From the NCBI RefSeq assembly GCF_003403075.1, contig NZ_CP031557.1:3100001-3164000 (forward strand): 64,000 nt of DNA, in the 5' to 3' direction. Below, piece after piece: positions 17,970-37,016 of this stretch. Made by a program: the position numbers and the translations under genes. The notes under the pieces are model-generated. The model was not told where the DNA came from, did not search any database, and was given only the letters and a program-made list of their open reading frames with translations. How positions within the stretch are numbered: the first letter of the stretch is position 1; the number at the start of each line of letters is the position of its first letter. Source of the stretch: Flavobacterium psychrotrophum (GTDB lineage Bacteria; Bacteroidota; Bacteroidia; Flavobacteriales; Flavobacteriaceae).

Positions 17970-18051
17970 GGCCACGTGGAGAAACTGGTAGACTTGCCAT
18001 CTTGAGGGGGTGGTGCCGCAAGGCGTATGGGTTCGAATCCCATCGTGGTCA
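17970..18051 (+). tRNA. tRNA-Leu(GAG)
   Basis: 82 nt with the long variable arm of a class II tRNA. The acceptor arms GGCCACG and CGTGGTC pair. The anticodon stem CCATC/GGTGG encloses loop TTGAGGG, giving GAG. The T-stem is ATGGG/CCCAT. The 3' end is the integration target of the island that follows. Confidence 0.93.
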
Positions 18052-18052
18052 C
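18031..18052 (+). repeat. attL: tRNA-Leu 3' end, left boundary of the genomic island
   Basis: The 22 bases from GTTCGAATCCC to GGTCAC recur at 36996-37016 with a single base missing. The first 17 bases are identical. The tRNA stays whole on this side, as is usual for tyrosine-recombinase islands. Confidence 0.85.
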
Positions 18053-18096
18053 TTTTAGCTGTTTAGACAACAGCGAACTTATTTTCAAAAGCTCAT

Positions 18097-18132
18097 AAAA
18101 GCCTGCAAATCAATAGAGTTGCAGGCTTTTTT
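18097..18132 (+). terminator. terminator between tRNA-Leu and the integrase
   Basis: AAAAGCCTGCAA pairs with TTGCAGGCTTTT, followed by more T. Confidence 0.85.
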
Positions 18133-18323
18133 AGTTTAAGGCACATTTCAAATTTTATAATAATAATCATAATTATCGTGGCGCTTTCGTGGCACCGGTA
18201 TTTTTGATAAAAAAGTGCCACAGATTGGAACTTAACCAATTATAGGTTAACATGTTAAACGGGTTAACGACTTGATTTTAGGATACTATAATTCGCCCTT
18301 TATATTAATTAAAATGTTGAATT

Positions 18324-19643
18324 ATGTTAGAAAACAGTTTTAGGCTTACCTTTTTTTTAAAGTCACCTAAGAAGGTGACAAGCCAAAGATTAATTTATTT
18401 GAGAATTACCGTTGATGGTATTGCAAAAGAAACTTCGACCAAACAGAAATGGGATGTAAAACGTTGGGATCAACAAGCCTGTAGAGCTACAGGTAATAAA
18501 GAAGATGCTAAGTCTATAAACTTTTACCTTGATTCGGTAACGAACAAAATTGTACAATTCAAAGCCGAACTTATATTAAATTCCCATACCATAACAGCAC
18601 AGCGTATTGTTGATTTTGTATTAGGCAGGGACGTTTCAAGAGCCAAGCTATTAGAAGAATTTACGCTTCACAACGATGAGATGAGGGCATTGGTATCAAA
18701 GGGAGAGTATGCCATTGGCACTCATACCCATTTTGTTATTGCCAAGGGCCATGTAAAGGATTTTATTGAATTTAAGTACCGTGCCCCCGATATAGAATTT
18801 AGGGATCTTAATTATGAGTTTATAAAGGACTATGAATTTTTCCTAAAAACTGTAAAGCATTGTAACAACAACACTGCTTTAAAGCATATTACATATGTTC
18901 GGAAGATGGTATTGCGGGCTGTACACAAAGATATTCTTCAAAAGGATCCCTTTGCCAGCTTTAAAGGAAAAAGGACAAAGGTGGTTAAAAGCCCTTTAAG
19001 CCTGGAAGAACTTACAGCTTTGGAAAATTACAATTTTTCAACTCACAGGTTAAGTGTCATACGTGATGTTTTCATATTTCAGTGTTACACAGGGCTCGCT
19101 TATGTTGATGTCTTTAATCTTAAGCACTGTGATATAAAAAACGGAATTGACGGCAAGCTATGGATTATTAAAACGCGCCAAAAAACAGACAGTCCATTTC
19201 ACGTGCCACTACTACCCCAAGCAATTAAAATTATGGAATTTTATAGAAATGACGCTACGTGTCTAAAAAAGGGTACAATCCTTCCGGTAGCATCAAATCA
19301 AAAGATGAATGAATATCTAAAGGAAATTGCAGCACTCTGCGGGCTCTCCTGCAGCCTTAATACTCACAAAGCAAGAAGAACATTCGGAAGCACTGTCACG
19401 TTGGCAAATGGAGTACCTATACACGTCGTAAAGGAAATGCTAGGCCATCAGTCCGTTAAGCAGACAGAAGAGTATGCTATTACCGAACAGATTGCCATTA
19501 GTAGGGAGATGGACGCCTTGACAAATAAATTTAATGTATCACTTTCCAAACCTACACTTGAATCTGATGGTATCGTATTGGAATTAAGAAAAGAGATTGA
19601 AGATCTAAAACATCAGTTGATGTCTAAAAATGATTTTGATTGA
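18324..19643 (+). CDS. tyrosine site-specific recombinase (island integrase)
   Basis: 439 residues, Bacteroidota phage-integrase type. An N-terminal arm-binding domain (about 1-100) and a SAM-like core-binding domain (about 105-205) precede the catalytic domain. Catalytic residues: His348/Arg351 in HKARR, GlyHis 374-375 in LGHQS and Tyr384 in TEEYAI. The first box reads CYTGLAYVDVF, lacking the usual arginine after TGL, as in CTnDOT-type recombinases. It begins 272 bp after tRNA-Leu and points into the island, so it very probably inserted the 19-kb segment that ends at 37016. The C-terminus is helical (LRKEIEDLKHQLM). Confidence 0.93.
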   Translation: MLENSFRLTFFLKSPKKVTSQRLIYLRITVDGIAKETSTKQKWDVKRWDQQACRATGNKEDAKSINFYLDSVTNKIVQFKAELILNSHTITAQRIVDFVLGRDVSRAKLLEEFTLHNDEMRALVSKGEYAIGTHTHFVIAKGHVKDFIEFKYRAPDIEFRDLNYEFIKDYEFFLKTVKHCNNNTALKHITYVRKMVLRAVHKDILQKDPFASFKGKRTKVVKSPLSLEELTALENYNFSTHRLSVIRDVFIFQCYTGLAYVDVFNLKHCDIKNGIDGKLWIIKTRQKTDSPFHVPLLPQAIKIMEFYRNDATCLKKGTILPVASNQKMNEYLKEIAALCGLSCSLNTHKARRTFGSTVTLANGVPIHVVKEMLGHQSVKQTEEYAITEQIAISREMDALTNKFNVSLSKPTLESDGIVLELRKEIEDLKHQLMSKNDFD

Positions 19644-19701
19644 TATGCATTCACTCAAATTTTAGACAATATGTAATAAGTAAGAAATATTTAAAATTTG
19701 C

Positions 19702-19743: not shown

Positions 19744-19748
19744 GTAGA

Positions 19749-20933
19749 CTACTTGTATTTTATGTTGATACTTATAATATCCGATGTAAGGTTGGTAGAA
19801 CGACTGTAATGTCCATATCGTATTTCAAGCGCATTAAAATGTTTTATCCCAAAAACGCCGTTAGGTGTTGCTATCCTCATCCCCATACCATAAAAACTGC
19901 TGTCAAATTTAGACAGGTCGTAGTTGCTTGTATAAAATTCTTCTGATCCCGTATGTTCGGCATACGGCTTAAAGTATTTTACAGCACTCTGTGTATAATA
20001 TCTGTAGAACGGGCTTATCGAAAAGAAAGGCGATATTTTTACCGGCACTTCAAGATCCGCCGTATGCGAGGTCAGTTTCCAATCGTCGGTATAATAACGG
20101 TAATAGGCCCTTATAATAATATTATCCCCAAGGAAATAACTCGCGCGTACTGCGAGTGGAATCTTAAGCCTGCTGTCGGGCAGGTATTCCTGGTGCACAC
20201 TGCCATCACTAAAATATACCCTGTGAAAGGGCAGGCTCAGATATCCCTGTTGTGATACGATATCGGCTTGGAAGAGCACTTGGAAATTCCGGTTGACCAC
20301 CTGCGAATAACTCAGCGTTCCGGCAAAAGTATTCCGCCCTTCCGTGCTTCCGTTACCAATGGCAGACCTAAGTTCAATGGGATTGATCAACTTTACCTGG
20401 TCGAGGTAGGTTTGGAATTTGGCGGTAAATTCCCCATTTCGGTCTTTTGTTTTTTTAGAATAACTAATATTCCCTCCAAAAGACTGATAATCAAATTCAG
20501 TTGAAGAAGATACCCCTGCGCCAAAGGTATTGCCCGTCTGCTCATTCTCCATGGTATAGCTTAAGGAAGGATATACCCTGATATCGGAATACGAGGCCGA
20601 GGTGTTTGCACTCAGGTCAATCATGTCTGATGAGGCGGAGGAATAGTGATCGACACCCACCTCAACATCCAGGGTGTGCTTTTTCCCGGTTTGGCCAATC
20701 TTCACAAATTTCACATCCAGGCTGTTGGATATATCGGTCAGTTTTTCGGTACCGATACCTCCTGTGACAGCCGAGTTGTTCCCATCCTGCTTATAATAGC
20801 TGGACACCAGGTTGATCTCATCCAGTTTTAGTTTCTGGGCCTTGTAGGTAGTTGAATCTGCCGGTGTTTTGTCCTGCGCCGCTACCCGTAGTAACCCTAA
20901 CAGGGCAAAGCCTGTAATAAAAATGCGTTTCAT
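19749..20933 (-). CDS. DUF3570 outer-membrane beta-barrel-like protein
   Basis: 394 residues with an N-terminal signal peptide (MKRIFITGFALLGLLRVAAQ). The rest is rich in alternating amphipathic strands ending in a run of aromatic positions (NLTSDIISINIKYK), consistent with an outer-membrane barrel. It matches what I know of DUF3570, including the QKLKLDEINLVSSYYKQDGNNSAV start and the HYSSASSD motif. Last gene of a four-gene operon with thioredoxin, ApbE and DUF4266; these families are known to travel together. It may be the outer-membrane partner of the system. Function unknown. Confidence 0.78.
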   Translation of the reverse strand: MKRIFITGFALLGLLRVAAQDKTPADSTTYKAQKLKLDEINLVSSYYKQDGNNSAVTGGIGTEKLTDISNSLDVKFVKIGQTGKKHTLDVEVGVDHYSSASSDMIDLSANTSASYSDIRVYPSLSYTMENEQTGNTFGAGVSSSTEFDYQSFGGNISYSKKTKDRNGEFTAKFQTYLDQVKLINPIELRSAIGNGSTEGRNTFAGTLSYSQVVNRNFQVLFQADIVSQQGYLSLPFHRVYFSDGSVHQEYLPDSRLKIPLAVRASYFLGDNIIIRAYYRYYTDDWKLTSHTADLEVPVKISPFFSISPFYRYYTQSAVKYFKPYAEHTGSEEFYTSNYDLSKFDSSFYGMGMRIATPNGVFGIKHFNALEIRYGHYSRSTNLTSDIISINIKYK

Positions 20934-20951
20934 GGTTATTTTATTTTAGGG

Positions 20952-21170
20952 TTAATTGCATCCACAGCCACCGCCACTTTTTCCTGCATTAGCACCCGAG
21001 GAACCTTCCCGATAGGTCTGGAAGCTCAACTCAGTTTTCTCAACTTTACGGTTGTTTAATGCCATTTCGGCATCATTAATCTTGTTTTTTTGGTACTCCT
21101 TAACCGAGGTGCAGGAGCAGCATGCAATGCCGATAAATACGGCACAGCACAGGTAACGGGAAAGTTTCAT
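20952..21170 (-). CDS. DUF4266 lipoprotein with GGGCGCN tail
   Basis: 72 residues. Lipoprotein signal MKLSRYLCCAVFIGIACCSC, with several candidate Cys. The mature part is short and conserved in the family as I remember it: NDAEMALNNRKVEKTE, FQTYREGSSGANAG and the terminal KSGGGCGCN. The closing Gly/Cys tail looks like a metal-binding or modification site. EGSSGAN also resembles the ApbE flavinylation signature Dxx(S/T)GA(S/T), but with Asn at the acceptor position. It sits between apbE and DUF3570 with 6- and 18-bp gaps. No activity is established. Confidence 0.8.
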   Translation of the reverse strand: MKLSRYLCCAVFIGIACCSCTSVKEYQKNKINDAEMALNNRKVEKTELSFQTYREGSSGANAGKSGGGCGCN

Positions 21171-21176
21171 GTCGTT

Positions 21177-22106
21177 TTAGTTAAGGTTAATATTTTTTGA
21201 GGTATAAATGTTGTTGTGGTCGTCTATAATGATACAATACAAATCAGGTATCTGGTCAATTAGGTACAGCCCTGCCTTAATACCCATTACGGCAATAGGT
21301 GTTGCCATAGCATCCGCAAACTCTGCATTGGCACTTATGACTGTTACACTTTTTATTCCCGATATAGGAAGCCCTGTTTTGGGATCGATGGTGTGTGAGT
21401 ATTTTTTTCCACCTATCATTATATATTTCTCATAATTTCCTGATGTTGCTACTGCCTTGCCGGAGATATCCATATAAGAAAATACGTCCTGTGGTCGGTC
21501 CGGATTTGAAATCCCAATGCGCCACGGGCTGCCATCGGGCTGCATACCCCAGGCGGTAAGGTCGCCACTGGCATTGATGATACCGCTTGAGACGCCCTGT
21601 CGCATCAGTAGTGCTTTTGACATTTCTGCCGCATAGCCCTTGCCAATGCCCCCGAAACCGATACGCATACCTTTTTCTTTCAGATATACCGAAGTATTGG
21701 AAGCATCAAGGATTATGTTATTATAATTTATAAGATGCACCCTTTTTAAAGCTTCTTCTTTAGAGGGTAAGCTGGACATAGCCCTGTCAAAATTCCACAG
21801 GCTTTTATCGATGCTGCCGTAAGTAATGTCAAAGGCGCCCTGTGTGATTTTAGATATGGCAATACTACGTTCAATGAGCCTAAAAACTTCTTCATCCACA
21901 ACAACAGGTGCAATACCTGCATTGTTGTTGATGCGGTTAGTCTGGCTATCATTGCTAAACGTGGTGAGCAATCTTTCAATCCTCCTTATCTCTTCCGCTG
22001 CTATTCCAATAAAGTGTTGGGCAGCAGCATTGTCTTCGGCCACCACAGTAATGGTAAAGTTGTTGCCCATAAGTTTCAGGGATTGAGAAAAAGGCTTCAT
22101 CACCAT
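21177..22106 (-). CDS. apbE: FAD:protein FMN transferase (ApbE family)
   Basis: 309 residues. Transfers FMN from FAD to a Thr/Ser of target proteins. Visible: GAFDITYGSIDKSLWNFD, GFGGIGKGYAAEMSKALL, INASGDLTAWG, YSHTIDPKTGLPISG and the metal-site end ANAEFADAMATPIAVMG. Unlike most Gram-negative ApbE proteins, no clear signal peptide or lipobox is seen (MVMKPFSQSLKLMGNNF), so it may act in the cytoplasm or be exported otherwise. It starts 3 bp after the thioredoxin stop. Its target in this operon is unknown. Confidence 0.9.
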   Translation of the reverse strand: MVMKPFSQSLKLMGNNFTITVVAEDNAAAQHFIGIAAEEIRRIERLLTTFSNDSQTNRINNNAGIAPVVVDEEVFRLIERSIAISKITQGAFDITYGSIDKSLWNFDRAMSSLPSKEEALKRVHLINYNNIILDASNTSVYLKEKGMRIGFGGIGKGYAAEMSKALLMRQGVSSGIINASGDLTAWGMQPDGSPWRIGISNPDRPQDVFSYMDISGKAVATSGNYEKYIMIGGKKYSHTIDPKTGLPISGIKSVTVISANAEFADAMATPIAVMGIKAGLYLIDQIPDLYCIIIDDHNNIYTSKNINLN

Positions 22107-22109
22107 AAC

Positions 22110-22541
22110 TTATTTGTGTGCCTTACAAATGGCTTGGATCTCTTCAGTCCACTTTTCAACGGAAACTTCCGGTTTCCCCGTCCAGGCCTTTACAACCTTC
22201 CCGTCGGAGTCAAGCAACAGCGTAAAAGGAAATTGACCTTCTTTATTGTATTTCTCCGCAAGTGTCTCATTACGTTTTACCTGCTCAGCAGAAAGCTGGT
22301 TTTTCTTTTTCCTCGGAAAATCGGCATTGACCAGCACTAGGTTTTCCTTTGCCATGCTTTGAAAGGTATCACTGTCAATATAATCTTTGCGGAGCATAAT
22401 GCATGGGCCACACCAGTCTGATCCTGAAAAGTTAAGGAGTATCAGTTCATGTTTCTCTTTGGCTATTTTTTTTGCGTTCTCAAAATCGGGTTCCCACTGG
22501 GTGGGAATCACAAACAGTAATAGTAGGGCTAAAAATTTCAT
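22110..22541 (-). CDS. exported thioredoxin-family protein
   Basis: 143 residues. A short signal peptide (MKFLALLLLFVIPTQ) is followed by a thioredoxin fold with the active site SDWCGPCIML (typical WCGPC) at about residues 43-47. A long insertion (RKKKNQLSAEQVKRN) precedes the cis-proline region QFPFTLLLD. It probably works in the periplasm, reducing cysteines such as those of the DUF4266 tail encoded two genes downstream; that link is inference. First gene of the operon. Confidence 0.88.
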   Translation of the reverse strand: MKFLALLLLFVIPTQWEPDFENAKKIAKEKHELILLNFSGSDWCGPCIMLRKDYIDSDTFQSMAKENLVLVNADFPRKKKNQLSAEQVKRNETLAEKYNKEGQFPFTLLLDSDGKVVKAWTGKPEVSVEKWTEEIQAICKAHK

Positions 22542-22605
22542 AGTAGTAAGTGTTTATGTGATAACGTAAAGAGCTAGCTGGTAGTATGGATTATATTTTG
22601 AAAGG

Positions 22606-23301
22606 TCATGTCGTCTGAACATTAAAGAGATAGCCCACCAGAGCCGAAGCACACATGGCAATTGTACCCCATAAACATATCCGCAATATGGACTTCACCT
22701 TATTGGAGCCACCTGCACCGGCGGCCAAGGCTCCAGAAATAGCAAGAAAGACTATAGCAAAACAATATTGCAGCACTACCATATACCTAACAGGCGCTAA
22801 AATCGCTACCAACAGTGGCAAAACCCCGCCGGCTATAAAAGCAAGCGCTGATGCCATTGCCGCTTGGAACGGTTTTGCCTGCGTGATTTCGTTAATACCC
22901 AGCTCGTCTCTTGCATGGGCTTCCAATGCATTATGGGCCGTCAGTTGCAAAGCGACTTCATGGGCCAAATCGGGAGCCAGACCCCTGGCAACATAAATAC
23001 CGGTAAGCTCTGCAAGTTCAGACTCCGGCATTTCTGCCAGTTCTTTCTTTTCTCTTTCCAGGTCAGAAGTTTCAATATCGCTTTGCGAACTTACCGATAC
23101 ATATTCGCCTGCGGCCATCGAGAGCGCTCCTGCAACTACTCCGGCCAAAGCAGCCAGTACAATTGGATCTCTACCGTCACTGGCGGCAGCAATACCAATG
23201 GCGAGACTCGTCGTTGACAATATGCCATCATTTGCCCCCAGGACAGCGGCACGAAGCCAGCCGCTTCGGTTGATAAAATGGTTCTCAGTTTGCGTTTTCA
23301 T
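22606..23301 (-). CDS. VIT1/CCC1-family iron/manganese transporter
   Basis: 231 residues with five hydrophobic helices. Family hallmarks: AAVLGANDGILSTTSLAIG in the first helix, AGALSMAAGEYVSVSSQ in the second, and the cytosolic charged helical region SDLEREKKELAEMPESELAEL with many Glu that bind metal in plant VIT1. The last three helices follow PFQAAMASALAFIAGG. Relatives export or store Fe2+/Mn2+. It lies 64 bp upstream of the ApbE operon on the same strand, which may link that operon to metal handling. Confidence 0.9.
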   Translation of the reverse strand: MKTQTENHFINRSGWLRAAVLGANDGILSTTSLAIGIAAASDGRDPIVLAALAGVVAGALSMAAGEYVSVSSQSDIETSDLEREKKELAEMPESELAELTGIYVARGLAPDLAHEVALQLTAHNALEAHARDELGINEITQAKPFQAAMASALAFIAGGVLPLLVAILAPVRYMVVLQYCFAIVFLAISGALAAGAGGSNKVKSILRICLWGTIAMCASALVGYLFNVQTT

Positions 23302-23558
23302 CTGTCAAATCCTGAATTTTATAGTAAAGATATACTTTATTTTGCTTAAAAACACATCGCCTTTTAACAGTCCTGTATACTGTCTCTTTTAAAGTAATCA
23401 GTGACAAATAAAAGTACCGTATTTCCTGATAATTTTCTTACACGACCTGAAAATGTGATGCCTAATTTATATTTATTCCAAGTATGAATTGCCATGTGCA
23501 CGCAAGACTACTGGTAATATTATTTAAATTTGATACTCCACGCATAAAAGTCAAGGGT

Positions 23559-23789
23559 ATGTTACAATTTAAAGATAAAAGATTAGTCAAATTTGGTACG
23601 TATATAGCTTCTCTACGAAAAGAGCGTGGCTTGGAATCTAAAGACGTTACGAAAAACTGTTCATTAAGTACCAAAGACCTACAGTCTATTGAGGACGGCA
23701 GTAAGAATTTCGGTTTTACAACATTGCTCGAACTTGCTAAAGGAATAGGTATAAGTCCTAAAGATTTATTGAATATTGATCTTGACTAA
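23559..23789 (+). CDS. XRE-family helix-turn-helix regulator
   Basis: 76 residues from the ATG at 23559 (MLQFKDKRLVKFGTYIASLR). A longer frame from 23484 exists, but its extra N-terminus looks non-coding. A single HTH_3 domain is visible: FGTYIASLRKERGLESKDVT, then STKDLQSIEDGSKNFGFTTL and LELAKGIGISPKDLL. Such small stand-alone XRE proteins are common in mobile elements as repressors. Target unknown. Confidence 0.8.
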   Translation: MLQFKDKRLVKFGTYIASLRKERGLESKDVTKNCSLSTKDLQSIEDGSKNFGFTTLLELAKGIGISPKDLLNIDLD

Positions 23790-23895
23790 GGCGTTACTCC
23801 TCGAATTAATATTTCCTAAAGCCATGCTAGGAATATCAAATGTATAAACGTAGGCATGAGATTCCATAGAATTTTATCTTCTTTCATATTAATTA

Positions 23896-23928
23896 AAAAA
23901 GGCAACCTGCTTATCAGATTGCCTTTAA
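23896..23928. terminator. hairpin terminator
   Basis: AAAAGGCAA pairs with TTGCCTTT around CCTGCTTATCAGA. It overlaps the 3' end of the minus-strand remnant that follows and faces the XRE gene. Confidence 0.65.
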
Positions 23929-24201
23929 ATCAATTTCACTTCGAACATCAGGATGATAGGATGGCCTATAGCTGATATAACCTAATTCCTGAAGCTCTTT
24001 AAAATATTTATGATAAGTGGGTAATGTATTTACATGAGACAGTGACATAATTTTAGCCCTGCTGACCCGTATTGCTTTCTTTTTCCCCTGTTCACAGCCC
24101 AGCAATAATATGGCATAAAGCAAAGCAATATGCCAAACATTGAGCCTACTGTCATGCTGAAGGTTGAAGAAACCTTTTATAATACTATTTGTTTCCTGCC
24201 T
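23914..24201 (-). pseudogene. 5'-truncated winged-helix protein of mobile elements
   Basis: The frame is open from 24201 down to the TGA at 23914 but has no ATG; it begins directly after an in-frame stop. The readable part (NLQHDSRLNVWHIALLYAIL, then VSRAKIMSLSHVNTLPTYHK and FKELQELGYISYRPSY) matches the winged-helix proteins often encoded near integrases in Bacteroidota elements. The missing 5' end meets the missing 5' end of the divergent caspase-like gene near 24200, so one deletion probably removed both starts. Product unlikely to be made. Confidence 0.65.
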
Positions 24202-25021
24202 TCAGGCTTCAAAATTTTACTCCAGGTCCAGCGGCATCCCTCACATTGTATTTATATCGGATGCCTGTCGTTCAAAGGCCACTACTTCTGAACAGTTTGG
24301 TATGCGTGGATCCGTAATATTTTCATATTCTACCGGCCAGCAAACCATACCAGACATAGATATGTTTTATGCTACGGCTCCAGGGGATCCTGCACTTGAA
24401 GTGGAGATTACGGAGGCTGATGTAACCAGTAGGCAAAGCTTATATACTAAATTACTGCTGGAGGGACTTCATGGCAAAGTCCCACAAATAATACGCACGC
24501 AAGGGCGTAACGATATCGTGATGGCATATGAACTTTCACAATACCTGAAAACCGGGCTTCCCGATGCGCTCGCTGCAGCAAATATATTGCGAAACCAACG
24601 CCCTGATGCTGAAATAACATCGCGTGAACCCTTACATCTTTCGAAGTTTCCCAGAAAACCTACGAAGCCGGTTCGGGTAGTTCGGCCTTTGAAGGGTAAA
24701 AGAAGCGAAGTTATGAACTTTGAAACGGTAAAAAAGATGGTTGACCATCCGCTTAAAGGAGCCTATAGGGATACCATAAGTTTCTCACAGCGACCAACAG
24801 GTGAGGAATTGGAATATATTGAACGTTTCAGGGAGGCCTCTGCAGTAGAAACAGACAAGTTTCATACAGGGTTTATCGTTTTTGGCGCTCAACTCTTCAT
24901 TAGAGAGTACGATTTGCCCAACCAAAAAGGGCCTTATGTACATATGGTAAATTTAGATCATGCTAATCACTACCAAAACACGTACTTCATGACGCTTACA
25001 AACGGCACAATCTATCCCTAA
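24164..25021 (+). pseudogene. N-terminally truncated caspase-like protein
   Basis: 285-codon frame. Homology starts only around IPHIVFISDACRS (about residue 25), the Cys segment of caspase/metacaspase p20 domains. It continues with GSVIFSYSTGQQ and DMFYATAPGDPALE, the loop after the active site. The ~100 residues that should carry the catalytic His are absent, and the first ~24 codons lie opposite the truncated winged-helix gene. A C-terminal region (MVDHPLKGAYRDTISFSQRP to the end) has no family I recognise. Caspase-like proteases in bacteria often serve as defence effectors, but this copy is probably inactive. Confidence 0.65.
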
Positions 25022-25070
25022 TACCTCATGAAGTACTTGCTGCATCTGACCCTATAAGTAGCATGTGAAA

Positions 25071-25114
25071 AAATATACTAAAAAGTATTTTATTTTAGAC
25101 TTTTTAGTATATTT
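25071..25114. promoter_or_regulatory. TetR operator and promoter
   Basis: Perfect 16-bp inverted repeat: AAATATACTAAAAAGT (25071-25086) and ACTTTTTAGTATATTT (25099-25114), 12-bp spacer. The right arm overlaps a -7 element TATATTTG (25108-25115) ahead of the regulator gene, so a bound protein would block transcription. Confidence 0.75.
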
Positions 25115-25133
25115 GCAATGTAATAATTTAGTT

Positions 25134-25724
25134 ATGGCAACTAAGGCAGAAAGAACGAAACAGTTTATTATAGAAACCGCCGCCCCCATTTATAACCAAA
25201 AAGGGATTTCAGGGGCTAACATTGATGATGTGCTTGAGGCTACTAAGCTTACTAAAGGCTGCCTTTATGGACATTTTGAGAACAAAGAAGACCTTACATT
25301 ACAGGTAGTTGACCATATGCTCACGAGCAATGGAGAAAAGATAGGGCTCGCAATTAGTAAGGCCAAAACGGCGAAAGCAAAAGTTTTTGCTTTTTTGGAT
25401 TTTTACAAAGATCCTTTAAATACCCATCTTAAAGGCGGATGCCCCATTTTTAATATAGCGGTGGAAGCTGATGACCATTTCCCTGAAATCAGCGAAAAGA
25501 TAGCAGGTATAATAAGGAACGGGCAGGAAGTGTTCGTCAGTATCCTTAAACAGGGCATACAGGCAGGAGAGTTCAATGAAAATCTTGACCCTGCCGTGTA
25601 TGCCTTTAAAGCCATGTCAGCGGTTGAAGGCGGTGTTATAATGTGTAAGGTGTTGAAAAGCGCCAAACCTATGGCAGGATTGATCAAAAGCCTTAAGGCC
25701 GAACTGGAGTCTTATTCGCAATAA
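25134..25724 (+). CDS. TetR/AcrR-family transcriptional regulator
   Basis: 196 residues from the ATG at 25134 (MATKAERTKQFIIETAAPIY); the upstream frame runs through the operator and is rejected. The N-terminal HTH is clear: NQKGISGANIDDVLEATKLT, then KGCLYGHFENKEDL. The C-terminal ligand domain (KGGCPIFNIAVEADDHFPE) is like YxaF/LmrA-type regulators. It probably represses itself and the SDR operon through the shared operator sequence found before both. The inducer is unknown, perhaps a small hydrophobic or carbonyl compound given the target genes. Confidence 0.88.
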   Translation: MATKAERTKQFIIETAAPIYNQKGISGANIDDVLEATKLTKGCLYGHFENKEDLTLQVVDHMLTSNGEKIGLAISKAKTAKAKVFAFLDFYKDPLNTHLKGGCPIFNIAVEADDHFPEISEKIAGIIRNGQEVFVSILKQGIQAGEFNENLDPAVYAFKAMSAVEGGVIMCKVLKSAKPMAGLIKSLKAELESYSQ

Positions 25725-25767
25725 ATCTGTCATAAGACCATAAGTTATGGTCTTTTTTTAAAAACTA

Positions 25768-25794
25768 AAATATACTAAAAAGTCTAAAATAAAT
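25768..25794 (+). promoter_or_regulatory. second copy of the TetR operator half, before the SDR operon
   Basis: AAATATACTAAAAAGTCTAA and the following seven bases match the reverse complement of 25088-25114 at 26 of 27 positions. It ends 5 bp before the first SDR start, at a place where binding would block expression. Confidence 0.7.
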
Positions 25795-25799
25795 ATAAC

Positions 25800-26537
25800 A
25801 TGAAAACAGCAGGTAATACCATATTCATTACAGGAGGCAGTGCCGGGATAGGCCTGGCTATCGCAAAAAAACTAAACGCAGAAGGCAATAAGGTCATCAT
25901 CAATGGCCGTAGCGAAGAACGCCTGCAAAAGGCATTAGCTGAATTAGATGGTGCCATAGCCATTAAGGGTGACTGGGCCGTGGATACCGAAAGGGCCCGA
26001 ATCGCAGCCGAGCTGAAAAACAACTTCCCCGAGCTAAATATCATTATCAACAATGCAGGGGCCGCCTTTGGTTATCTGCTGAGCGAAGAAACGAATGCCG
26101 TAGAAAAAGCACAGGTTGAAATGAACCTGAATTATTTTGCTATTATTCACTTTAACGAATTAATGATGCCGCACCTGTTACAAAAAGAAGAAGCGGCTAT
26201 TGTAAACATCTCTTCCCTTGCAGTTTATGGCAGCCATAAATTCCTACCTACGTATTGCGCCACTAAAGCGGCCTTACACAGCTATACCGTGGCGTTAAGG
26301 GACACGTACCAGGACAATAAAAACCTGCAGGTGTATGAAGTCTACCCTCCGCTTACCAATACCGAGTTCTCTTCCTATATCGGTGGAAAGAATGGCATCC
26401 CACCGCAGGAGGTTGCAGATGAGTTACTGACCGGATTAAAGGCCGCACAATTCGATATTCCTGTTGGCGAGACAAAGATATATGCTGCGGCTGTTAATGA
26501 AGCCATGGCAAAAATAGTCGCTGAAGCTAGGCATTAA
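25800..26537 (+). CDS. SDR-family NAD(P)-dependent oxidoreductase (DltE-like)
   Basis: 245 residues. Rossmann nucleotide motif TGGSAGIGLAIAKKL (TGxxxGxG), INNAG, and the catalytic Ser (VNISSLAV) with Tyr/Lys in PTYCATKAAL. The C-terminal half (VYEVYPPLTNTEFSSYIGG) is typical of the DltE-like classical SDRs, which carry a Pro-rich loop after the active site. Substrate unknown. First gene of the TetR-controlled operon, 23 bp before a second SDR. A fragment of a close paralogue lies at 34158-34330. Confidence 0.88.
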   Translation: MKTAGNTIFITGGSAGIGLAIAKKLNAEGNKVIINGRSEERLQKALAELDGAIAIKGDWAVDTERARIAAELKNNFPELNIIINNAGAAFGYLLSEETNAVEKAQVEMNLNYFAIIHFNELMMPHLLQKEEAAIVNISSLAVYGSHKFLPTYCATKAALHSYTVALRDTYQDNKNLQVYEVYPPLTNTEFSSYIGGKNGIPPQEVADELLTGLKAAQFDIPVGETKIYAAAVNEAMAKIVAEARH

Positions 26538-26560
26538 TCAGGTTCTAAAATAATGTACTT

Positions 26561-27325: not shown

Positions 27326-27361
27326 CAGCTCAACACAAACACTGCAGATAAATCATACGTC

Positions 27362-27694: not shown

Positions 27695-27781
27695 CATTAT
27701 TATCACCGGATAAAAGGCTATTCTTCAGCAAACCAGAATATATTATAGTTCCAGTATTTAAAAAAAAATAAAAGATAGATA

Positions 27782-29257: not shown

Positions 29258-29518
29258 TTATTTTCCAATCTGCTTTTGTGAAAAATGTGCAATTCTCTGT
29301 GAAGTTTTTTCAGTGTTACTTCCCTTTTCGTTTTCTACTTCACGTTTTTCAGGAGGAACTGAAGTAAAATGACCATTATTATCCACGTATATGATCATGC
29401 TTTCAATACCTTTACCTTTATTGTTATTGGTTTTCCTGTCCTCCCGCTTCTGTGCTTTTTGTTTCTTTATTAAAGTTTTCTTTTTATTATTTTCTTTCTT
29501 AAAAAAAGAATCTGCCAT
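29258..29518 (-). CDS. small basic protein of the cold-shock-associated type
   Basis: 86 residues from the ATG at 29518 (MADSFFKKENNKKKTLIKKQ). A very Lys-rich N-terminus is followed by NNNKGKGIESMIIYVDNNGH and FTSVPPEK. This layout (MADSF..KKE..KKK, then YVD..G..T..PP) is common in Bacteroidota proteins labelled cold-shock protein, though it is not a CspA OB fold. It may bind RNA or ribosomes through the Lys tail. It lies just downstream of the DEAD-box helicase on the same strand. Confidence 0.65.
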   Translation of the reverse strand: MADSFFKKENNKKKTLIKKQKAQKREDRKTNNNKGKGIESMIIYVDNNGHFTSVPPEKREVENEKGSNTEKTSQRIAHFSQKQIGK

Positions 29519-29591
29519 CGTATATGAATGATTTAAAAAGTGAAATACTGTATTATTGTCTATTACCTTGCCTGTTGGTTGCCTGAACGCA

Positions 29592-30707
29592 TTACAAAGC
29601 AGAAACCGGTAGCTTAAAACCAATGAGTTTTTCGATGCTCCTCAGGTCTGCTTTTTCTTCATTTCCACAAAATGATACCGCCGTGCCGCTATTACCGCCA
29701 CGACCCGTACGGCCAATTCGGTGTACGTAAGTTTCCGGTACATCAGGGAGGTCAAAGTTAATCACGTGTGGGAGCTCGTCAATGTCAATGCCACGCGCTG
29801 CAATATCTGTAGCCACAAGTACACGCAGCTGGTTAACTTTAAAACCCTGTAATGCTTTTTGCCTTGCATTTTGAGACTTGTTACCATGGATAGCTGCTGC
29901 AAATATGCCTTCCTTTACAAGAAGCTTTACCAGCTGGTCTGCGCCACGCTTGGTGCGGGTAAATACCAGCGAACGCGAAATTCCATTACCATTAAGAATA
30001 TGCGTCAGCAGTTTTTCCTTATCCCTTTTATCTACAAAGTAAACGCTCTGGCTTACGGTTTTTGCAGCGGAAGATACTGGGGCTACGCTCACGTATTCAG
30101 GGTTTTGCAACAGGCTGTCAGCCAATTGCTGTATGGTGTTGGGCATAGTCGCAGAGAAAAACAGCGTTTGCCTTTGTGCAGGAAGTTTAGTAATGATCTT
30201 TTTTACATCACGCACAAAGCCCATGTCGAGCATACTGTCTGCCTCATCCAGTACAAATATTTCAAGGTTAGAAAGATCAATATATTGTTGTTGTATTAAA
30301 TCCAGCAACCTGCCGGGCGTGGCTATCAATATATCAACGCCGTTACGTAGTGCCTTGACCTGGTGGAATTGCGAGACTCCTCCGTAAATGGCAATATGTT
30401 TCAAGGTAAGATGCTGCCCATAAGATGTGAAGTTATCGCTGATCTGTATTGCCAGTTCACGGGTGGGCGTAAGTATAAGCGACCGTATCGCTTTTGTTTT
30501 TTTTGCTGGCCTGCCTGCCAGTTGTTGTAAAATAGGGATTGCAAAAGCGGCGGTTTTACCCGTGCCGGTCTGGGCGCAACCTATTAGGTCTTTACCCGAA
30601 AGGATTACCGGTATGGCTCGCTCTTGTATGGGAGTTGGTGTTGTATAATTTTGCTGACCCAAAGCTTTTAGTATGGGTGCTGAAATATTTAAATTTTCAA
30701 ATGTCAT
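29592..30707 (-). CDS. DEAD-box ATP-dependent RNA helicase (RhlE-type)
   Basis: 371 residues containing nearly only the helicase core. Q motif ([10 protein letters not shown]), motif I AQTGTGKT, Ia PTRELAIQ, Ib [29 protein letters not shown], then RecA-like domain 2 with [21 protein letters not shown] and motif [12 protein letters not shown]. It ends soon after motif VI ([14 protein letters not shown]), lacking the long basic tail many RhlE proteins have. DEAD-box helicases unwind RNA and are often cold-induced. It neighbours an RRM protein and the small basic protein. Confidence 0.94.
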
Positions 30708-30940
30708 GATAAAGTGTGCCGTAATGGCTTTTGTTTAAAGTAGTAGCCTAAATACCAAAGAGGTATTTAAGGCCTGAAAATTCTCAGGATGGTACCGATG
30801 CAGAGAATGAATCCGGGCGACGTCCATTCAATACCAGATGAATTTTATAAACAAAAATTGTCACTATTATAGGAATAGAAAATTCAAAAGGTAGAAAAAA
30901 ACAAGAACGGCCTAAACCATTCTTATCTATATAAATGAGT

Positions 30941-31252
30941 TTAGTATCTTCTGTCGTTAGACCTTGAATAGCCACCGCCTCCGCGGTTAGAACCGAAACC
31001 TGAATTAGCCGGTTTTGGACGGGCTTCATTTACCACAATTACCTGGCTGTCCAACCTTGAATTATTCAGTTCTTCTATCGCTTTTTCCGCTTCTGAGGTC
31101 TTTGGCATTTCTACAAAACCAAATCCTTTAGCACGGCCACTAACCTGGTCAATGATTAATTTTACGGAAGTTACTTCTCCGTGGGCAGCGAAAGCATCGC
31201 GCACCTGATTTTCTGAGGTACTATACCCCAGATTTGCTACATAAATGTTCAT
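30941..31252 (-). CDS. RNA recognition motif (RRM) protein
   Basis: 103 residues. One RRM: RNP2 IYVANLGYST at the N-terminus and RNP1 GRAKGFGFVEM at about residues 42-52, followed by a Gly/Arg-rich tail (FGSNRGGGGYSRSNDRRY) like cyanobacterial cold-induced Rbp proteins. Bacteroidota RRM proteins of this type bind RNA in the cytoplasm and shape expression of many transcripts. The ~108-bp leader after the -7 element at 31360-31367 would allow post-transcriptional control. It points towards the DEAD-box gene. Confidence 0.9.
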   Translation of the reverse strand: MNIYVANLGYSTSENQVRDAFAAHGEVTSVKLIIDQVSGRAKGFGFVEMPKTSEAEKAIEELNNSRLDSQVIVVNEARPKPANSGFGSNRGGGGYSRSNDRRY

Positions 31253-31359
31253 AATGTAATTTGTTTAAATTAAATAAGGCAACTGGAACGCCTGAACTGA
31301 AGAGTAAGAAGGGACAAATTTGCTTATCAGAGTGAGCATTGGCAGAGAACCAATATGGT

Positions 31360-31367
31360 CAAAGGTA
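31360..31367 (-). promoter_or_regulatory. -7 element of the RRM gene
   Basis: CAAAGGTA reads TACCTTTG on the minus strand, about 108 bp upstream of the start. Confidence 0.5.
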
Positions 31368-31451
31368 AGCCAAATATAAATAGCAATGCCAGTTTATCTT
31401 AAAAACTTTTAAAATAAAAAATTGAAAATCAACAAATTAAACTTTAAAGCA

Positions 31452-32699
31452 TCATTCCATGCCACGTCTAAGGTCTTTCTTGTCTAATATAGCGATCAGT
31501 CTATTTAGGGATAAGCCCTGCCCTATGGTGGAAAACAGTACTATAAAATAACAGCCTGAAAGTATACCTTCTTTGTATTGTGATTCAGGGAGCGACAAAG
31601 CCATTGCGATGGAGATACCGCCACGCAGCCCGGCCCATGCCAGGATGAAAACATTGTTGAAGTTTAGCTTACCTAAAAGGAACAGTGCAGGCAGCGAAAC
31701 GCTGATGATTCTTGCAATCAGTATAATGACTATTGAAAAAAGCCCGAGCAGCCAGTATTCCTCTAAAAAAGGCATGGCGACCAATTGCAGGCCGATCATA
31801 ACAAAGAGGATGGTATTAAGTACTTCGTCAATCATTTTCCACATTTTTAGCAGGAAATTATCCGATACTTTGTCCGTGTGAAAGCTGTTGTTGCCGATGA
31901 TAAGCCCTGCCGAAACTGCGGCAAGCGGTATTGAAGCATGGAAGTAATTAGCGAGGAACGATATGCCTAGCACCAGTGCTACCGACAACAGGAGTATGGT
32001 CTGGAAATCCTGTATAGATTTTATCAATTTATAACCCATATAACCGGCCAGCAGCCCGATTAGGATACCGCCAAGGATCTCATGCAAAAGTAAATTGCCA
32101 ACAGTGCTGATGCTTAACATAGCTTCGGGTTGTTGCACAAATTCCAATAGCAGTACAAAAAGCAATAGGCCTATAGCGTCGTTGAAAAGCGACTCACCCG
32201 CAACGACAGTCGAAAGCTTTTCCGATATTTTAGAATGTTTCAGTATTGCTCCTACTGCTATAGGGTCGGTCGGCGATATCAATGCGCCGAATATAAAGCA
32301 ATATACAAGCGGAAGTGCAATGCCGGAAAGGCTGCACAGATAATAGAGCAACAACCCGAAAATGACCGTTGACATGAATACCCCCAACGTGCTTAGCGCA
32401 AAAACAGGCCACTGCTGTTTTCGCAATTTCTGGTAGTCAAAATGGAGCGCACTTGCAAAGAGCAGGAAACCCAACATTACATCGAGCAATATCCTTGAAA
32501 AATCCATTCCGGCTGAGACATCTCTTATTTTTGTAGAAAACTCATTATTGGTTTTGCCGATGATTACAATAACAATAGAGACAACCACTGAGATAGCAAC
32601 CACACCTATAGTGCCAGGCAGCTTTACAAAACGCTGGTTCAGGTAGGAAACACCGGCGCTTATCACCACCAGGAGGGTTATCAGTTGTAAAAAATCCAT
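31452..32699 (-). CDS. Na+(cation)/H+ antiporter of the NhaP/CPA1 type
   Basis: 415 residues, about 12 hydrophobic helices. CPA1 hallmarks: FGALISPTDPIAVGAILK and AGESLFNDAIGLLLFVLL (the ND motif), with LAWAGLRGGISIAMALSLP late. Helps control cytosolic Na+ and pH at the inner membrane. The C-terminal cytosolic tail is short (AILDKKDLRRGME). It starts 9 bp after the desaturase stop, so one transcript from 33935 probably covers both genes. Confidence 0.92.
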   Translation of the reverse strand: MDFLQLITLLVVISAGVSYLNQRFVKLPGTIGVVAISVVVSIVIVIIGKTNNEFSTKIRDVSAGMDFSRILLDVMLGFLLFASALHFDYQKLRKQQWPVFALSTLGVFMSTVIFGLLLYYLCSLSGIALPLVYCFIFGALISPTDPIAVGAILKHSKISEKLSTVVAGESLFNDAIGLLLFVLLLEFVQQPEAMLSISTVGNLLLHEILGGILIGLLAGYMGYKLIKSIQDFQTILLLSVALVLGISFLANYFHASIPLAAVSAGLIIGNNSFHTDKVSDNFLLKMWKMIDEVLNTILFVMIGLQLVAMPFLEEYWLLGLFSIVIILIARIISVSLPALFLLGKLNFNNVFILAWAGLRGGISIAMALSLPESQYKEGILSGCYFIVLFSTIGQGLSLNRLIAILDKKDLRRGME

Positions 32700-32708
32700 A
32701 GGTTATGT

Positions 32709-33812
32709 TTAAGCTGGCTTGTAAGTAACTTTTGAAGGTGCAGCTTCCCGGGCAAACTTCTTCAGGACGCGATAATGTGAACGTATTGCGGAAAAGAAAG
32801 TAGGACTTTCAATATAAGGTAAACCGTACTCATGTGCCGTTTGCTTTATTATCTTACCAATCTCGGCATAGTGTATATGGCAAACCTTTGGAAATAAATG
32901 GTGCTCTATCTGCCTGTTCAGTCCAACAAGGAAGAATGCTGCCATGGGGCTATCAGAGGAAAAATTGGCGGTAGTATGCATCTGGTGTTCCGCCCATGTT
33001 TCCTCCATAGTGCCTGTAGGGTTTGCATCCGGGAAATCCGTTTCTTCTACAACATGTGCCAATTGAAATACAAGCCCCATGGTAAGCCCCTGTGTAAGGT
33101 GCATAGCAATAAAACCAATGATGAACTGCCACCATGTAATATTTAAAACAAGCAATGGCACAATAATGAACAGGAAGTAATAAAGCCCTTTCGAGGCAAA
33201 CAGGTTAAAATACTCTTTTGCCGGATGCTTTACGGTAACCTGTCCTATCTTCTTTTGGAAGATTTTAATGAAATCCTTACGAAAAACCCATGACAGGCTG
33301 GCTAACCCATAAAGGGGAAATGCGTACCAATGCTGGAAGCGCTGAATTTTTCTTTTGGGGTCATCTTCTTCAATACGTATCAGCCCCGGGGCAATAACAA
33401 GGTCTTCGTCGTGACCGGGTATATTGGTAAAAGTATGGTGCACGCCGTTATGTGAGATATTCCAGATGTAAGGGCTGGCTCCAAGAAGGTTGAACACCAT
33501 ACCGAGCGCTTTGTTGACATACTTATTGGATGAGAACGCCCCATGTATGGCATCATGGCAGATATTAAAGCCTACAAAAGCACTGAACATGCCTAAAAGC
33601 ACTGCAAGGCCAAACATGGCAAAAGTTGGTAACATACCGGATATAATAAGCGCATAACAACCAAAGAAGCCGCCCAGGAATATCAGGGTTTTGACCCACA
33701 TCGCAGTATTAGCATGCTTATGCTTTCCTGTTTCGGCAAAGTGGGCATCTACCCGTTGCCTGACTGCTGTGAAAAAAGCAGAACTGGGAGAAAATTTCAA
33801 ACGTTTTGTCAT
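32709..33812 (-). CDS. membrane fatty acid desaturase (acyl-lipid/acyl-CoA type)
   Basis: 367 residues. Integral membrane di-iron enzyme that puts a double bond in acyl chains. The three histidine boxes are intact: HDAIHG, HNGVHHTF and QIEHHLF. Four to six hydrophobic segments separate them. The first residues (TKRLKFSPSSAFFTAVRQRV) and the Box 1-Box 2 spacing match the Bacteroidota linoleoyl-CoA/delta-5 desaturase-like group. Desaturation keeps membranes fluid in the cold. Confidence 0.93.
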   Translation of the reverse strand: MTKRLKFSPSSAFFTAVRQRVDAHFAETGKHKHANTAMWVKTLIFLGGFFGCYALIISGMLPTFAMFGLAVLLGMFSAFVGFNICHDAIHGAFSSNKYVNKALGMVFNLLGASPYIWNISHNGVHHTFTNIPGHDEDLVIAPGLIRIEEDDPKRKIQRFQHWYAFPLYGLASLSWVFRKDFIKIFQKKIGQVTVKHPAKEYFNLFASKGLYYFLFIIVPLLVLNITWWQFIIGFIAMHLTQGLTMGLVFQLAHVVEETDFPDANPTGTMEETWAEHQMHTTANFSSDSPMAAFFLVGLNRQIEHHLFPKVCHIHYAEIGKIIKQTAHEYGLPYIESPTFFSAIRSHYRVLKKFAREAAPSKVTYKPA

Positions 33813-33934
33813 GATAACGACATAGCTACAACCTTAAATTCACTATGCAATCGATAAGACAGGACGGTGAGAGGGCATTCTATAGTATTGGGGTTCCAAT
33901 ATTTTTTTCGGAAGTGTTCCTTTGTTGAAGTATA

Positions 33935-33942
33935 CAAAGATA
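33935..33942 (-). promoter_or_regulatory. -7 element of the desaturase-antiporter operon
   Basis: CAAAGATA reads TATCTTTG on the minus strand, 122 bp upstream of the desaturase start. Confidence 0.5.
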
Positions 33943-34157
33943 ACGTATTATTCTTATTATATTGTATTTTGAATGGATACACCCTAAGATTGAAATTTTT
34001 CAAAATTAAATTTTAGAAAAAGAAATCAAATACATTATCTCTACTTAGTAATTAATTGGTGCTTGAATAAAAGCAATTTCTATTCGAAGAAAAAGACAAT
34101 TAACATTCTACTGCAAATATGGCTACACGGAATTTAAAGACCAACACATAAATATAG

Positions 34158-34330: not shown

Positions 34331-34411
34331 GGTCGACCAAATCCAGGTAAGCCTTGCAGCACCGGCGGTAAAAAGGACTCACTTAGCCAATGATCAACAG
34401 CTACTTTGTCT

Positions 34412-34917: not shown

Positions 34918-36477
34918 TCACTGTGCAGGTAAATTCGCGATAGCTTTACCGTCCATACTGGCTTGGACTAGACTTGCAATGAAGAGTGTTAATGGCTCTA
35001 TATTTTGCCCAACGCTTGCATGCTCTAACGCCTGCATATATTCTTCCCGACGTTCTACAGGTATTACAGTCCAAGGGTACCCGCCTGAGGCAAGCATTGC
35101 ATTCATAATAAATCTGCCCATACGGCCGTTACCATCCATGTAGGGATGGATAAATACAAAAATGAAATGCCCCAAAACCGATCTGACGGAAGCTTCCTGC
35201 TCCTGTTCAAGTAATTCAAAGAGTACCGGCATAGCATCACGCATAGAGTCCACGCTTAATGGCACATGTTGTGAATTGCCAATATATACCTGATGCCTGC
35301 GGTAACCTGCGAGGTCTGAAGCTTTTAGCAGCCCTACCGCGACGCTTGGGTCAAAAAGCTCCCTGTACCATTTTGAATGGTCCATATCTACCTGAGCACC
35401 AGGATTTGCACCTTGCATTATTGCCATTATGCTTTCCTTGACACTTAAAAATGCCTGATAGTATCCTCTCGCAGCCATGGCATCGCGTTGCTGGCGGTCT
35501 TCCTTGTTTTTTTCAAAATCCCATTCACCACTACTCACTTTAGCAATAAGCTCCGGTGTTACCGTATAGCGTTCAATGGATAGTGAATGGTAAGCATCAG
35601 TTACGTATATCTCATCTACATCATTAAGATAAGCGTCTGCATCTTTGGGCAGGCCTGGCTGTGCGGGAAATCTTAAAAGGATTACATCACGCATCTGCTG
35701 CCACATTAATCGGATTCGGTTGGCATAGGCAGACCTTTCCCTTGGCGGAAGGTTCAGCGTCAATTTCACTTCAAAGGGGTCGTCTTCCCTTATGATAAAA
35801 TCGGCCTGCCTAAAGGTCTCTACAACTTGATCTGCAATCCGATCGCGCTCGATGTTCCTAAAGGCAGCAGCGAGCCGTCCGGCATAAGTAGTATGTCCAT
35901 TTTCCAATAGTAGTGGCAATACTTCCGAAGCATCACGGATCATGGAAAGTGCGGTACGCGCATCGATAGGATTATGCGTATAAAAACTCGATGAACAATA
36001 AATAAGGGCTGTAGGCAAATCATAAATACGAATGCCTTTTTCTACTATAATATGCTCGGGATCCGGAAGGTTCCCCTTTAGATTAATAATAGATGTACCA
36101 TGGACCAACTGTGTAGGATTATTATTTGCCTGGGGCGAACGAATGATCAACTGCTTAGGTACTGCGTTGTTACCCGCATGCAAAAGTAGTGAATGATCAG
36201 GGGACAGGCTCCAATTGTCCCCGTAACGATGGCCTAAAAATTTAGCAATAAAATCCCAATAAGATGTGTACCATGAAGTAGTTTCACCTTTCTTTTCATC
36301 GGGATTTGAAGGAATATACCACCCTTTAAGTACTTCTTTTATAAATCCATGCTTTTGCAATAGTTCCCTGTACCGCCTGTTAGGTATTTCATCAGTATAT
36401 ATCCCTACGGCACCTTCTTGCTGTAAGCTGTGCAGGAACTGCAATGCCTCTGCTAATTTTTCATTTCGTATTGCCAT
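34918..36477 (-). CDS. large Fic-domain protein with AbiEi-like N-terminus
   Basis: 519 residues from the ATG at 36477 (MAIRNEKLAEALQFLHS); a TTG nine codons upstream is also open. The catalytic Fic motif HPYMDGNGRMGRF lies at about residue 444, and a possible inhibitory helix SIERY is seen near residue 300. Fic enzymes transfer AMP or similar groups to proteins. The N-terminal ~240 residues look like the winged-helix and AbiEi-like region of Bacteroidota antitoxins (IPNRRYRELLQKHGFIKEVL, LKGWYIPSN, SLSPDHSLLLH, PTALIYCSSS). One polypeptide may therefore hold both DNA binding and AMPylation. Confidence 0.85.
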   Translation of the reverse strand: MAIRNEKLAEALQFLHSLQQEGAVGIYTDEIPNRRYRELLQKHGFIKEVLKGWYIPSNPDEKKGETTSWYTSYWDFIAKFLGHRYGDNWSLSPDHSLLLHAGNNAVPKQLIIRSPQANNNPTQLVHGTSIINLKGNLPDPEHIIVEKGIRIYDLPTALIYCSSSFYTHNPIDARTALSMIRDASEVLPLLLENGHTTYAGRLAAAFRNIERDRIADQVVETFRQADFIIREDDPFEVKLTLNLPPRERSAYANRIRLMWQQMRDVILLRFPAQPGLPKDADAYLNDVDEIYVTDAYHSLSIERYTVTPELIAKVSSGEWDFEKNKEDRQQRDAMAARGYYQAFLSVKESIMAIMQGANPGAQVDMDHSKWYRELFDPSVAVGLLKASDLAGYRRHQVYIGNSQHVPLSVDSMRDAMPVLFELLEQEQEASVRSVLGHFIFVFIHPYMDGNGRMGRFIMNAMLASGGYPWTVIPVERREEYMQALEHASVGQNIEPLTLFIASLVQASMDGKAIANLPAQ

Positions 36478-36533
36478 AGCATTGTTGGTTTTATGTATTA
36501 CCAAGAGTTATCATAGCATCGTATATAATTATC

Positions 36534-36677
36534 ATTATTATATGCTACTGTAGCATCTCTATTATATTCTGCTGTAATATTTCTATTAAATTCCGTTGTA
36601 GTATTTCTATTAAATTCTGCTGTAGCAAATTTATTAAATTCTGTTGTAGTATTTCTATTAAATCATGCTTTATTATT
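36534..36677 (-). repeat. 24-bp tandem repeat array upstream of the fic gene
   Basis: Six consecutive 24-bp units with consensus TCTATTAAATTCTGCTGTAG plus TATT. The four central units differ at a few positions and the outer two are more diverged. They lie just upstream of the Fic start and could be a set of binding sites for its own N-terminal DNA-binding domain. Confidence 0.8.
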
Positions 36678-36995
36678 TTACTTTCATTCAAATTCATCAT
36701 TTTGATCGCTGCTTTTTCATTATCATTATTAACATTACAGACAAAAAATACATATATTTGGAATGAATTATTGTATGTAATAAGTCGTTAAATAAGCCTT
36801 GGCAAAAGGTAGATAAAGGCTGTTTCGCTATGGTATGGTACTTGGATTACAAGAAATCAAAAAACACCAAACAAAACACTTGAAAATCAGCACTTTAAAA
36901 ACACTTACTAGAGTAGTTTGCCGGACTCTCGCCTTTCGTGGCACTTTTATTATGGAGGTTGAAATAGCCAGGTTTTACTGGGTTTTTAGAGATAA

Positions 36996-37016
36996 GTTCG
37001 AATCCCATCGTGTCAC
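36996..37016 (+). repeat. attR: right boundary of the genomic island
   Basis: GTTCGAATCCCATCGTG matches tRNA-Leu positions 18031-18047 exactly and continues TCAC after a one-base gap. No tRNA body surrounds it, so this is the displaced 3' end left by integration. Confidence 0.85.

Follow-up and report, generated by a model that had tools for sequence, protein, structure and literature searches.

Structure of the island and its ends

The subject of this study is a 19-kb genomic island in the tRNA-Leu(GAG) gene of Flavobacterium psychrotrophum (assembly GCF_003403075.1), which lies in a window of 64,000 nucleotides (the whole stretch of DNA analyzed: contig NZ_CP031557.1, positions 3,100,001 to 3,164,000 of the forward strand; positions below are those of the window unless another sequence is named) and which is very likely an integrative and conjugative element (ICE) stripped of its transfer genes. 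The tRNA-Leu(GAG) gene, identified with ARAGORN and Rfam at positions 17970 to 18052 of the plus strand behind two tRNA-Lys genes, is the integration target, and its last 22 bases (18031 to 18052) form the left attachment (att) core. As stated in the first-pass annotation of this DNA, these bases recur on the plus strand at 36996 to 37016, with no tRNA predicted around them, as a right att copy of 21 bases that has one G fewer than the tRNA version. Two features of tRNA-targeting islands are therefore present here: the far end directly repeats the 3' terminus of the tRNA (21 of the 22 bases, one being deleted), and an integrase adjoins the tRNA. In particular, an open reading frame (ORF) of 439 amino acids on the plus strand (18324 to 19643) carries the arm-binding, SAM-like, and catalytic domains of a tyrosine recombinase according to Pfam, and its start confirms the distance of 272 bp from the tRNA given in that annotation.

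The same annotation had named a result that would speak against the island, namely, a core match occurring many times in the genome. This is not the case, as the 17-mer common to both att cores is found, with at most one mismatch, at exactly two places in the whole single-contig genome of 4,843,008 bases. An ungapped search with the full 22-mer hit tRNA-Leu as well as both tRNA-Lys genes and missed the right copy, because such a search permits mismatches but no gap. A 71-bp copy of the tRNA-Leu body (93% identity) at positions 3388096 to 3388166 of the genome of F. psychrotrophum (G000) lacks the outer acceptor bases on both sides, and it was rejected as a second tRNA-Leu since no tRNA is called there. 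Base composition was likewise discarded as an island marker, the G+C content of 2-kb windows across the island ranging from 35 to 45% and thus spanning the 41% of the entire window.

Behind the right att copy, a hairpin on the plus strand (37018 to 37064) folds with −23.1 kcal/mol against a mean of −4.95 kcal/mol for shuffled sequences (z, −8.1), and the most plausible reading is a terminator native to tRNA-Leu, as already advanced in the annotation and supported by the hairpins that follow the tRNA or the att copy in the three relatives described below. More generally, tRNA-Leu matches were obtained in 87 of 100 genomes, and 15 of the 29 best-matching relatives have, within 75 bases of the gene, a hairpin whose arms measure at least 12 bases together with a T run (17/580 shuffles); a criterion with arms of 8 bases was too lax (27/29 relatives versus 205/580 shuffles) and was replaced by the former.

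Related elements at the same tRNA

The genus searches covered part of the genus Flavobacterium, that is, 398 genomes for the right flank and for the integrase and 299 genomes each for the desaturase, DUF3570, and TetR genes discussed below. The right-flank search gave the first lead to an element in Flavobacterium sp. Sd200, by way of the conserved right end. This element has a tRNA-Leu(GAG) and an integrase at one end and a full-length copy of the tRNA end 111.5 kb away (NZ_WUMN01000003.1, about 280.3 to 391.9 kb), and its right att copy sits within 98 bp that are 88.8% identical to positions 36927 to 37022 of the window; then come a hairpin and the same gene of the chromosome as in G033 (described below). 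The inner part of this conserved right end (36927 to 36995, plus strand), which can be recognized in an alignment of three elements, includes one GTGGCAC site (36938). The third element, found in F. akiainvivens IK-1, is 15.8 kb long (NZ_LIYD01000005.1, about 4429.6 to 4445.4 kb) and shows the same arrangement and right end, with a full-length right att core that differs by one base from the left core and is followed by a hairpin. The integrases in this tRNA are 85% (Sd200) and 83% (F. akiainvivens) identical to that of the window. The extent of the island proposed at first, with both ends as named, is thus supported by relatives having the same right end.

A site lacking the insertion occurs in a further genome of the genus, G033, where the order of the shikimate kinase gene, two tRNA-Lys genes, and tRNA-Leu is kept and the tRNA is directly followed by a hairpin; about 1.5 kb past it lies a homologue of window positions 56269 to 57192. 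This is an empty site in a relative, of the kind that the annotation expected; the species is distant, and the glycan locus that borders the island in the window does not form its right flank.

The probable deletion scar

All stop-to-stop ORFs of at least 50 codons of the Sd200 element were compared with the island. Apart from the integrase and antisense shadows, the backbone matches lie at 23917 to 24195 (61% amino acid identity) and 24200 to 25030 (54%); one further match, of 27.5%, involves a generic dehydrogenase. The first corresponds to the remnant of a small, regulator-like ICE gene on the minus strand (23890 to 24196), whose 5' end is cut at the junction, and the second corresponds to an internal fragment of a caspase-like ICE gene on the plus strand (24200 to 25021), which aligns with about residues 103 to 380 of a 569-residue Sd200 protein. 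At the nucleotide level, the regulator match stops at 24196 and the caspase match starts at 24218, which delimits a scar at 24197 to 24217. In Sd200, the two sides of this scar have the same order and orientation and are 68,593 bp apart, with transfer genes, a relaxase, and a coupling protein between them. Moreover, the regulator fragment starts just past the start codon of its relative, and about the first 100 residues are missing from the caspase fragment; both are shortened at their meeting point, and it follows that the junction cut both genes.

The Sd200 element looks like a conjugative element, judging from the Pfam assignment of 6 of its 10 scanned proteins to transfer or mobilization functions (TraG, TraM, DUF4138, coupling protein, relaxase, and TraJ); the DUF4138 protein is presumably TraN-like. 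In F. akiainvivens, residues 379 to 665 of the coupling protein (94% identity) come directly after the regulator-like and HTH_17 genes, which suggests a comparable loss of the transfer region with other end points. Since these end points fall inside the span missing from the window, it is possible to hypothesize a single old deletion, later enlarged, behind both short elements.

Pfam detected no transfer gene, relaxase, or coupling protein among the 18 ORFs of the island, and no island match to the mobilization region of Sd200 was found beyond the caspase fragment. The machinery of a self-transmissible ICE, namely, a relaxase, a coupling protein, and genes for type IV transfer, was thus not found in the island, which does hold what would be expected of a decayed ICE, i.e., backbone remnants in the ICE order. 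It also differs from a CIME, which keeps its att sites and has lost its integration and transfer genes according to the definition in the available part of a review (PMC5704250), as the integrase ORF is open and its catalytic residues are there.

Origin and present mobility

On these grounds, we are confident, short of certainty, in the following history. An ICE with a CTnDOT-like transfer system entered the 3' end of tRNA-Leu(GAG) by means of its tyrosine integrase; the tRNA was restored with the 3' end that the element brought along, and the original end and the terminator were displaced to the right, as the comparison with the relatives shows. A later deletion, to judge from Sd200, would have removed the transfer genes, the relaxase, the coupling protein, and the HTH_17 gene and joined the small regulator-like gene to the caspase-like gene at about 24.2 kb. 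We favor a deletion in the window over an insertion in Sd200 because the genes are truncated on both sides. Cargo blocks flank the scar on both sides, and the island would then have been inherited vertically.

The HTH_17 gene, which may encode the excisionase, is kept in F. akiainvivens and absent from the island, and the right att core, full length in both Sd200 and F. akiainvivens, is one base short in the window. Because no transfer genes and no excisionase candidate were found and the right core is shortened, the island is probably fixed, excising rarely or never, and now vertically inherited. Loss of the only tRNA-Leu(GAG) upon excision was also considered, and this idea is weakened by the joined flanks, on which ARAGORN calls a tRNA-Leu whichever core is used (one base shorter with the shortened core).

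That call also weighs against the history of loss and fixation proposed here, and so do several other points. The caspase fragment is also without its C-terminal part, and therefore at least one further rearrangement must have occurred. The lost part is known solely through a relative that is 54 to 61% identical at the scar. The exact empty site, with tRNA-Leu, hairpin, and glycan gene in succession, was not found among the 398 genomes searched via the right flank, because these relatives are too distant (the best-scoring GH16 match reaches 70% nucleotide identity). Furthermore, in its available part, the review considers that many islands with an integration module but no known conjugation genes are more likely to be functional and mobilizable than decayed (PMC5704250), and other members of the family present in the cell could give help in trans.

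The last two points lead to the alternative that survives best, even if we regard it as rather unlikely: an integrase-only island that is functional and mobilizable, with another element in the same cell supplying the transfer genes and the excisionase for its movement, for example, one of those carrying the paralogous integrases of this genome. Besides the preference of the review for such elements over decay, as far as its available text goes (PMC5704250), the retained catalytic residues of the integrase would agree with it, and so would the at least three related integrases in the same genome (G000 174125 to 175429, 2745644 to 2746939, and 1996322 to 1997605), which are located 270 to 303 bp from tRNA-Val(TAC), in two cases, and from the tmRNA. 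These probably mark further islands, and their number is a lower bound, as the scoring covered 4 of the 13 integrase candidates from a first look. The truncation of both genes at the scar, the missing base in the right att core, and the absence of transfer genes from the 18 scanned ORFs speak against this alternative, and so does the comparison with the mobilization region of Sd200, of which nothing but the caspase fragment is matched.

A second alternative concerns the glycan locus to the right of the island (37439 to 53000), which in relatives lies elsewhere and which comprises two GH16 genes (one scanned by Pfam) and, judging by sequence, a GH3-like gene and SusC/SusD-like genes. The annotation had placed this locus outside the island, and it does lie to the right of the att copy, yet it is itself an addition at this place, and none of the three relatives compared (G033, Sd200, and F. 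akiainvivens) has it here. This absence would fit with island and locus having arrived as one composite, the copy at 36996 being an internal att site. We consider such a composite improbable, as no third core copy occurs to the right and the terminator hairpin follows position 37016 as it does at native sites. Moreover, the glycan genes of G033 lie on a different contig, where the 40 kb read contain no tRNA. In F. akiainvivens, the att copy and hairpin lead to other genes: one small ORF (with no window match better than an E value of 0.5), a 49-residue fragment related to 56269 to 57192, and homologues of 53568 to 55013 (68% amino acid identity) and of 56269 to 57192. For these last two reasons, the glycan locus is best regarded, from the gene orders compared, as a separate addition next to the island.

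Glycan-use cargo occurs in the Sd200 element itself, which carries a GH32 gene and two SusC/SusD-like pairs that are 26 to 31% identical to those of the window (L100 5180 to 9163, L091, and L097).

Finally, that the short form is ancestral and 68 kb were inserted into the Sd200 element, as the likewise short F. akiainvivens element might suggest, is very improbable, given that the junction in the window truncates both genes and that the one in F. akiainvivens falls within the gene of the coupling protein (94% identical in the part that remains); had there been a simple insertion between intact genes, this would not be expected.

The integrase family

Relatives of the integrase (E value of 1e-60 or better) occur in 209 of the genomes searched, its own included; among the matches listed, only the Sd200 integrase exceeds 62% identity. 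We assembled a family of 83 members, made up of 79 loci from named genomes (kept from 421 relatives), the window, and three paralogues from its own genome. The alignment of these sequences confirmed the presence of K287, H348, R351, H375, and Y384 in the window integrase, and the corresponding catalytic K, H, R, H, and Y positions are filled in all 83. The position of the usual first arginine is occupied by alanine in 82 members and by serine in one; we take this position to be the place of the first arginine in many tyrosine recombinases.

A tRNA or tmRNA gene is present on the same strand within 1.5 kb upstream of 71 members (69 at 231 to 303 bp, the other two at 413 and 416 bp), and none was found upstream of the other 12, two of which had less than 500 bp to inspect. 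The targets are Tyr (40 members), Ser(TGA) (10), Arg (6), Val (5), Leu(GAG) (3), Ser(GGA) (2), and Asp (2), with Ser(CGA), Ala, and the tmRNA represented by single members, which makes nine tRNA targets and one tmRNA. In the integrase tree, obtained with a quick method and with SH-aLRT support only and showing some long branches, the three Leu(GAG) members form one clade with a support of 100, and 12 target changes are needed when the members without a tRNA are left out. The family is therefore a natural set for studying the choice of tRNA.

In the leader adjoining the left att site, positions 18181 to 18222 contain GTGGCG and GTGGCAC in forward orientation and GTGCCAC inverted, alignable across the three Leu elements, and by their sequence these may act as arm-like sites. 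A strict set of at least two GTGGCA and one TGCCAC occurs in 28/83 family leaders and in 0/1,660 shuffles. It was rejected as a universal feature, as the window itself does not have it (one of its copies is GTGGCG); the leader of the tmRNA paralogue has neither motif.

Cargo of the island

Three blocks of cargo genes were recognized with Pfam. The first (19749 to 23301, minus strand) encodes DUF3570 and DUF4266 proteins, an ApbE flavin transferase, a thioredoxin-like protein, and a VIT1 family transporter, and it occurs in the same order in G033, with 73% nucleotide identity and no tRNA in the 20 kb read. Clusters of the ApbE/DUF3570 type are known; in the available part of the report describing them, a DUF3570 protein of Chlorobium is shown to be flavinylated, and VIT1 is found in 25 clusters (PMC8238504). 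No exact match to the flavinylation motif [S/T]GA[S/T] is present in the three DUF3570 proteins inspected (window 19749 to 20933, L260, and L261), each of which has SSAS/TSAS-like motifs at two places. Next to this block, a small helix-turn-helix protein (23484 to 23789, plus strand; a weak HTH_19 match in Pfam, below the cutoff) has a homologue of 56% identity beside the first block in G033.

The second block (25065 to 28780, plus strand) encodes a TetR regulator, two SDR oxidoreductases, a DoxX-like protein, and a zinc alcohol dehydrogenase; most of it is found in G201 and part of it in G320, with 63 to 70% amino acid identity, the DoxX gene being unmatched there. Taken as possible markers of mobile cargo, the DUF3570 gene has relatives in 109 genomes and the TetR gene in 20, their own included. 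The four DUF3570 and TetR neighborhoods that were read contain no tRNA, and thus there is no sign of an island origin for the first two blocks.

The third block (29592 to 33812, minus strand) encodes a DEAD-box helicase, an RRM RNA-binding protein, an Na+/H+ exchanger, and a fatty acid desaturase, gene families that would suit cold or salt stress. Relatives of the desaturase at an E value of 1e-100 or better occur in 8 genomes, its own included, and only that of Sd200 reaches 90% identity. In particular, positions 29364 to 33952 are 86.5% identical over 4,614 bp to a block of Sd200 that lies some 5 kb away from a tRNA-Val integrase of this family, whereas two Sd200 stretches at the Leu site, the second of which includes the tRNA and the integrase, are 71.0 and 78.0% identical to the window. 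On the basis of this difference, a small comparison, the block was probably exchanged between such islands, among which cargo would move. The 38 kb read of the tRNA-Val element revealed no right att copy to mark its right end; the block may lie inside this element, as a match to the regulator-like gene further in would support.

A Fic-domain protein of 528 residues (34918 to 36504, minus strand; Pfam) matches SoFic of PADLOC over residues 299 to 517, and its N-terminal part has no Pfam match even at an E value of 5. At this right end, the window has the Fic protein in place of an AbiE pair common to Sd200 and F. akiainvivens. Between the Fic gene and the right att copy, there is a 24-bp tandem repeat (36536 to 36679); the Sd200 element has a similar stretch some 3.9 kb inward of its right end (L091 4248 to 4329).

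It is tempting, and no more than a tentative idea, to see a genus-wide family of related elements whose clades target different tRNAs, though nearly always with 230 to 300 bp between tRNA and integrase, and which trade cargo between sites and repeatedly shed their transfer genes, with the tRNA-Leu island of the window and the tRNA-Val element of Sd200 as two stations of the same cargo.

Comparison with known systems

By title and opening lines, we found no paper on a tRNA-Leu(GAG) element of this kind in the open literature on Flavobacterium islands, tRNA, ICEs, and F. akiainvivens. As far as its available text goes, the review leaves open whether integrase-only islands are decayed or functional, leaning toward the latter (PMC5704250). 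A readable scar, together with a full-length relative, argues for decay in one case and suggests it in a second.

The closest counterpart is the Sd200 element, which shares with the island the tRNA, an integrase of 85% identity, and the conserved leader and right end, but is different in its length of 111.5 kb, its transfer genes, its full-length right att core, and its almost entirely different cargo. The F. akiainvivens IK-1 element has the same tRNA, an integrase of 83% identity, and the right end, and most of its transfer region is missing as well; different from the island, it measures 15.8 kb, keeps the HTH_17 gene and both regulator-like genes, and has another junction, the AbiE pair, and other cargo. 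Among the characterized systems, the CTnDOT-type ICEs of Bacteroidetes are represented by Pfam models (TraG P-loop, conjugative transposon TraM, CtnDOT_TraJ, and DUF4138) that match Sd200 proteins, while none of these models was found in the island. By description only, the island can also be likened to the 10K genomic island of Riemerella anatipestifer, a tRNA-adjacent element whose tyrosine integrase, according to the available part of the report, was shown to integrate and excise, and which differs in its tRNA-Arg target, its 53-bp direct repeats, and its size of 10 kb (PMC6764341).

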